Origin: an uncultured Saprospiraceae bacterium
Lineage (GTDB): Bacteria > Bacteroidota > Bacteroidia > Chitinophagales > Saprospiraceae
NCBI GenBank assembly: GCA_938015925.1
Contig: CALLVY010000356.1
Coordinates: forward strand, 1 to 35,971
Direction: 5' to 3'
Length of the DNA stretch: 35,971 nucleotides
Part shown: positions 5,577-6,405 of the stretch, piece after piece
How positions within the stretch are numbered: position 1 is the stretch's first letter
Layout of the letters: every line of letters starts with the position of its first letter
Program-made: the position numbers and the translations under genes
Notes under the pieces: generated by a model
The model's input: the letters and a program-made list of their open reading frames with translations, nothing else
Told to the model about the DNA's origin: nothing
Database searches by the model: none

Positions 5577-5795
5577 TCAGGATTCTTTCTTCTCCTTTTC
5601 CAATCTTTCTGTACCCTGTCCCAAAGAAGGTATCAGCCCATAGACTACAAGTCCAAGGGCCCCTACGATTATACAGATCACGCCAAGTAACCAAAATTTG
5701 ATCATGAAAAACATCTGGTCAGTTCCCAAATAAAGGTATTCAAAAACAAACCCTATGATTAGAAGCAGGAGGGAAACAATAGTCTCTTTATTCAT
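5577..5795 (-). CDS. Small two-TM membrane protein, hypothetical
   Basis: 72 aa with two hydrophobic helices and a charged C-tail. Confidence 0.6.
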   Translation of the reverse strand: MNKETIVSLLLLIIGFVFEYLYLGTDQMFFMIKFWLLGVICIIVGALGLVVYGLIPSLGQGTERLEKEKKES

Positions 5796-5815
5796 AATTA
5801 GAATTCTTTAAGTTT

Positions 5816-5978
5816 GAAGTTGTTTAAAAATGAATTGATGGTTTATTTGCAAGTCATTGATTCCTAATAACTTCAGCTCTTTTTATTCCCATAGCTACGG
5901 CTATGAAATGAAAAAGGAGCTTCGTTCTAGAAATCAAGCACTTACAACTAAATCCAGAACACATTATTAAACAGCTTC
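5816..5978. repeat. ~163-nt imperfect palindrome (single long hairpin, TACG apex)
   Basis: Left arm 5816-5895 and reverse complement of right arm 5900-5978 align along their length: GAAG(T/C)TGTTTAA(A/T)AATG..., TTG(C/T)AAGT..TTGATT(C/T)CTA, AGCTC(-)TTTTT.ATT..CATAGC; loop 5896-5899. Confidence 0.8.
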
Positions 5979-6405
5979 TTTGATAAAATTGGCCTTAAAC
6001 GAAATAGAATCATTTCTAAAAACTAATTTTTCAGTCAAAAAACAAACGAATGCAAAACTATCTTTTTTAATAGTAAAACTATCATAATTATAACATCCCT
6101 AGTTCCTTATTTGTTCGGTCTTACTAAATGATTAATTTCTAAAGATGAAAATTACTTAAGCCCAATCCCTTACTCTTGCAGGTAATACACGGATCTTACA
6201 CCTCGACTTACCAAGCTACACCGCCCGCTTTTTTTCCAAAAACATTTTTTGCTAAAAACAATTCCCTTTCCCAAGAAACCAATCCCCTACCCCCTTCCAT
6301 CTCTCCCATTTTTTCCGTAACTTCGTAAGTTCTACAGCGAACTATTCTTTTTAGAATAATGCTGGCTACGAGAGAACTGCTATTTTTAACCACAACAGCA
6401 CAACT

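Follow-up and report, generated by a model that had tools for sequence, protein, structure and literature searches.

What keeps the two arms of a long palindrome complementary between two divergent bacterial genes? The window analysed here, a stretch of 35,971 nucleotides from an uncultured Saprospiraceae bacterium, carries such a palindrome, and the initial annotation offered three readings of it: a palindromic MITE-like element, a decayed inverted duplication or a long-hairpin RNA.

The palindrome is built as the annotation described. Its arms (5816-5895 and 5900-5978) enclose a TACG loop (5896-5899), the CATAGC/GCTATG apex is perfect, and a small membrane-protein ORF has its ATG 20 bp from the left end, with the element on the upstream side (Table 1). 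Folding of 5816-5978 gives -50.4 kcal/mol (z = -7.9) for the plus strand and -60.5 kcal/mol (z = -8.0) for the minus strand, which is the more stable of the two; none of 200 shuffles folds as well. Arms no better than shuffled sequence and a lack of copies elsewhere had been named as what would speak against the annotation; both were checked, and the arms outperform shuffles while copies are numerous.

A dispersed MITE

The palindrome is not 'single', as its first description had it. BLAST with the window element returns 22 matches in its own genome, on separate contigs, and copies are also present in relatives of the same family, G017 included. In an alignment the copies end exactly alike, in GAAGTTGTTTAAAAAT, and direct repeats of 3 bp mark the insertion points. 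A terminal repeat, GAAGYTGTTTRAWAAT, stands at both ends, and the genome contains 135 occurrences of this end pattern, compared with 5 of a reversed-pattern control. Ends could be paired and flanks read in 51 elements, of which 33 show the same 3 bp on either side; permuted flanks give a mean of 2.8 and a maximum of 8 in 2000 trials. The window element has no ORF in its 163 bp. Several internally deleted copies, 45-125 bp long, retain the ends and the duplications but no interior. Subfamilies within the same genome have the same ends, different arms and a similar apex, and they are of equal length once a nested insert of ~24 bp is discounted. Taken together, the ends, the 3-bp target duplications and the copy number argue for the first of the three readings: by its anatomy, the window palindrome is one copy of a dispersed MITE.

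Many of these MITEs carry a nested palindromic repeat of 22-24 bp, CCTGC...GCAGG, often within A/T runs, which looks like a separate small repeat (L005, L006, L007, L009, L038, L100, L106 and most SF-B copies, e.g. L062:172-353). Two copies (L015:1501-1786 and L054:511-814) hold a nested insert with GATCCCGCAGGATGACTGAGCGATCCCG-type repeats, which belong to a different repeat family.

Table 1. Features of the palindromic element and its surroundings in the window
Feature	Position	Strand	Remark
Left copy of the 3-bp target-site duplication, TTT	5813..5815		identical to 5979-5981
Right copy of the 3-bp target-site duplication, TTT	5979..5981		
Whole element, 163-bp palindromic MITE	5816..5978	-	minus is the putative conserved RNA sense ('strand I')
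Left terminal inverted repeat GAAGTTGTTTAAAAAT, 16 nt	5816..5831	+	same end beside IS5-family transposase C-terminus in G017, G093
Right terminal inverted repeat GAAGCTGTTTAATAAT, read on the minus strand	5963..5978	-	
Conserved central hairpin domain	5863..5932	-	covariance model R1 match, 43.5 bits, E 1.1e-6 (rough calibration)
Apex CATAGC-loop-GCTATG	5890..5905	-	TAGC/GCTA invariant across the superfamily
Neighbouring ORF, 72-aa small membrane protein (context, outside the element)	5577..5795	-	strand I in the same sense

Changing ends and a shared centre

IS5-family insertion sequences (IS) of the same bacterial family have ends of the form GARNNTGTTTAAAAAT, and most of them duplicate TNA. 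In related genomes, some have ends that are the same or nearly the same as those of the window element (17/17 nt in one). A 949-bp IS5-family IS in G251 has GAAGTTGTCTAAAAAW at its ends and the duplications GTA and CAT. The C-termini of IS5 transposases in G017 and G093 run directly into GAAGTTGTTTAAAAATG, which agrees with the end of the window element at all 17 nt. Matches between MITE ends and an autonomous element extend beyond these three genomes to other end types. The complete genome G626 has two types of MITE end, each matching a resident IS5-family element of ~900-930 bp, and in G215 (contig C323; L172/L323) an IS5-family transposase fragment is bordered by GAGCATGTTTGGAG, identical to the MITE ends in that genome. 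Judged from these matches, the ends of the MITEs are a feature that tracks the resident IS5-family element.

Trans-mobilisation by an IS5-family element is the likely route for the window MITEs, because elements with the same or near-same ends exist in related genomes. Two duplication types occur in the IS5 family, TNA and unrestricted. Elements that duplicate TNA were rejected as the partner, since the target duplications of the window's subfamily follow no TNA rule; the IS5 group of G251 and G626, with unrestricted 3-bp duplications, fits them. A search of the bacterium's own MAG (78% complete, 905 contigs) for a transposase of the matching IS5 group found none. Its DDE-family matches were set aside as not belonging to this IS5 group, L082 being by inspection a different transposase. 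Repeats tend to drop out of incomplete assemblies made of many contigs.

None of the autonomous IS that share these ends contains the hairpin. It follows that the MITE interior is not an IS remnant and that transposition would not need the hairpin. The distribution of the interior was followed with a central pattern, TTTTTNNNNNCRTAGCNNNGCTAYGNNNNNNAAAAA, searched together with a reversed-pattern control in 298 genomes of the host family. The pattern is present in 33/298, from 19 genera, with up to 62 matches per genome (self-matching sites being counted on both strands), and the control appears in no genome. Outside the family, among 395 genomes drawn across the class, only G626 has it; no match was found in viral contigs. 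Superfamily elements without an insert measure 156-167 bp, have 3-bp duplications and differ in their ends, for which at least ten different terminal repeats are seen (GAACATGTTTAAA, GAGCATGTTTGGAG, GTACTTGTTTGGAG, GGAATGAAAAATAA, GTAATGAGCAAAAA, GGGAATCGGAAGAT and others); some of these assignments come from a scoring rule that rewards duplications, and single cases are less certain than the count of 33/51. Three kinds of end coexist in G215, and the MITEs of G626 (159-160 bp) have duplications in 10/11.

The window copy is, by its match to the covariance model, a member of this conserved-centre superfamily. Model R1, built from 25 sequences of which none is from the window's subfamily, finds it on the minus strand (Table 1) and scores the plus strand at 18.6 bits. 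Its centre is divergent, without GAG/CGAT and with the 4-nt apical loop of its subfamily; the loop is mostly 3 nt in the others. Two further observations concern the range of ends. A locus in G001, of the window's genus (L025:1493-1562), matches the hairpin model at 45.6 bits, and its end looks like GGGTGTGTCTGAAAAAT, a further type. G147 has ~30 centres per genome (e.g. L261-L266), for which the pairing rule identified no terminal repeats.

Pairing and strand asymmetry of the hairpin

The centre of the ~160-nt rod is fixed in its order: T-run, CRTAGC, loop, GCTAYG, A-run. In a set of 41 centres that share less than 80% identity, neither TAGC/GCTA nor the T and A runs vary. Pairs 9 and 10, counted outward from the middle, show covariation that takes in every Watson-Crick type (0/500 shuffles). 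Other positions are conserved as non-pairs, with fewer Watson-Crick pairs than chance: A-C at 6, G-G at 8, tandem G-A at 12-13 and GAA/GAA at 23-25 from the centre. The same picture of non-pairs and covariation is obtained when orientation is set without hand rules.

Sequence identity is too blunt a measure of arm similarity (random arms reach ~0.55), and pairs were counted instead. In a 69-column gapless alignment of the centres, whose pairing structure was picked with the data in view, the paired cells amount to 83.2%, compared with 72.4% after shuffling and ~47% when the arms are slid; in the centre alone, double-change cells number 70 versus 35. For a full-length alignment of 25 elements, RNAalifold gives 47 pairs, 40 of them with compensatory changes. 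Terminal repeats were excluded from the pair count, because transposition alone keeps them complementary; upon their removal, 89.0% of cells pair (66.4% shuffled, 45-56% slid) and compensatory cells number 169 versus 60.3. These tests count related elements as separate, which makes the p-values too small. On this covariation evidence, the interior hairpin is under selection, and the earlier remark that the structure might be maintained was right.

Strand asymmetry was assessed in elements oriented by the 69-nt core, with mismatches counted outside it. On one strand, G-U outnumbers A-C by 91 to 17, and 29 of the 31 distinct elements lean toward G-U on that same strand. Folding agrees: all but one of the 31 fold better as strand I, by 16.8 kcal/mol in the mean. 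The window's subfamily, of which some copies (L009) are oriented uncertainly by the core profile and were re-oriented by alignment, has 90 G-U and 28 A-C. An excess of G-U over A-C on one strand implies that selection acts on a single strand. A function of double-stranded DNA or of a cruciform predicts no such bias. Cytosine deamination as the source would predict an excess of T on strand I, where A in fact exceeds T. Combined with the covariation, strand-specific G-U pairing points to a maintained single-strand hairpin, and the selected strand is most likely RNA. The annotation's long-hairpin RNA thus appears to hold jointly with the MITE.

Two palindromic minis with the same ends have no match to the hairpin model: L129:6583-6770, from a Gemmatimonadota MAG, and a 228-bp mini in L119, from a Pyrinomonadaceae MAG, which ends at 1526. 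Their 3-bp duplications are TTA and TAA. The former is strongly strand-asymmetric (MFE -59.7 versus -88.9 kcal/mol), so asymmetry may not be peculiar to the hairpin family.

Context, competing readings and known systems

The elements are intergenic, often within tens of bases of genes, in convergent, tandem and divergent contexts. Strand I is opposite to the gene on its 5′ side in 49/76 cases (p = 0.015, uncorrected for relatedness), which argues against a role in the mRNA of the upstream gene. Selection against so stable a hairpin in the sense direction is a possible cause of this orientation. At the window locus, strand I is directed toward the 72-aa ORF, and any transcript from beyond 5978 would carry the hairpin in the leader of this ORF. 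No promoter was seen inside the elements or consistently outside them, the Bacteroidota -7/-33 motif giving counts too small for use. Against Rfam, the window has no match at E up to 1, and 15 loci yielded nothing above any gathering score, the miRNA and sRNA names returned being far below thresholds. An integron attC array was considered and rejected, the copies being dispersed and flanked by 3-bp duplications.

We consider it probable that the window element is a MITE whose interior is selected as a single-stranded hairpin, likely a protein-bound transcribed RNA, and whose ends have been exchanged. Strand I, the minus strand in the window, would fold into the ~160-nt rod, in which the centre is fixed, certain non-Watson-Crick positions are conserved and pairs covary from end to end. 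It would act as a transcribed RNA rather than as single-stranded DNA, and a protein would bind it at the conserved internal loops. Our best guess is that the bound RNA might help the element to persist next to genes. The hairpin RNA would be the stable payload, while lineages would swap its ends for those of the resident IS5-family element. A bolder version, which is conceivable and which we would lean slightly against, is that of a mobile RNA gene: the ~160-nt hairpin RNA would be the inherited unit, persist across genera by repeatedly acquiring resident IS5-family ends and provide the host or the element itself with a function.

Among the alternatives, a hairpin of single-stranded DNA, formed by one strand in replication, transfer or transposition, is unlikely yet the most credible. 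G-T wobble is better tolerated than A-C in DNA as well, and G-T would also prevail in DNA hairpins; strand-specific hairpins of this kind are used by IS200/IS605 elements and integron attC sites. Strand I also lacks orientation toward gene transcription. However, double-strand DDE transposition is what the duplications and the inverted ends indicate, and the hairpin-free autonomous IS would transpose without such a structure. We think it improbable, too, that the element is an ordinary MITE with a functionless palindrome, whose complementarity stems from arm-to-arm correction or plain inheritance. MITE anatomy is present in full, palindromic MITEs are common, and template switching in quasi-palindromes is an established mutational process. 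Yet correction would erase mismatches, which recur here at fixed places and with fixed identities; the pairs adjacent to them covary with all four Watson-Crick types; and correction predicts no strand bias, contrary to the G-U excess.

A REP-like or terminator element serving neighbouring genes would account for intergenic palindromes in many copies and in all three gene contexts, but we regard it as very unlikely. No intrinsic terminator (GC stem followed by a T-run) lies within 5816-5978. On both strands, a T-run precedes the apical stem and an A-run follows it, which is the wrong order, and convergent gene pairs are not enriched (3/54 and 11/76). Target duplications and terminal repeats are not features of REPs either. 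That an inverted duplication decayed at this locus alone, as scattered mismatches between the arms had suggested, is hardly credible: dozens of copies, including those of other genera, have the same ends, length and mismatches. The annotation's second reading is unsupported, because across genera the mismatches keep to fixed places and the pairs next to them covary.

The preferred reading, a MITE with a selected single-stranded hairpin, bears on how MITEs are viewed. They are usually treated as inert IS deletion products, and here the interior outlasts the ends: its length, centre and pairing persist in about 20 genera, whereas the terminal repeats vary. The conserved hairpin with its end switching suggests an undescribed mobile RNA. 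If strand asymmetry reflects RNA function, a structured RNA family not previously described would be spreading as a transposon, and the question why some bacterial MITEs are long palindromes would become testable. In the literature covered, which leaves most subscription journals aside, nothing relevant was found on Saprospiraceae MITEs or on MITEs with a conserved centre and different ends.

Several known systems can be set beside the element. With REP/BIME and Correia-type repeats it has in common that it is a dispersed intergenic palindrome; it differs in size, 3-bp duplications and IS5-like ends, the GTAG/CGTC-tagged REP layout having been compared by inspection only. Like the Rfam families of Bacteroidota, it would be a structured RNA supported by covariation, although it matches none of them. 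IS5-family IS (NF033580 transpos_IS5_3; DUF4096 + DDE_Tnp_1) share the GARNNTGTTTAAAAAT ends and the 3-bp duplications, but they are 858-952 bp long and encode a transposase, whereas the MITEs are gene-free with an unrelated interior.

The element also resembles bacterial MITEs mobilised by IS families, which have been presented as derivatives that arose from an IS by deletion in a single lineage (PMC10969869; Cardinium MITECca01, PMC9769881). These are likewise short, non-coding, AT-rich, intergenic and of high copy number, with target duplications and terminal inverted repeats that match a resident IS (PMC10969869, PMC9769881). In contrast, length, centre and hairpin are here conserved across about 20 genera with differing ends, and the interior is absent from the autonomous IS that share those ends. 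For Coxiella QMITE2 and other MITEs with a long stem-loop, folding of the transcript has been described, and some copies of such MITEs have been proposed as sources of small RNAs (PMC5896051, PMC10969869). To those portions of these accounts drawn on here, the present analysis adds covariation and strand-specific pairing across genera.
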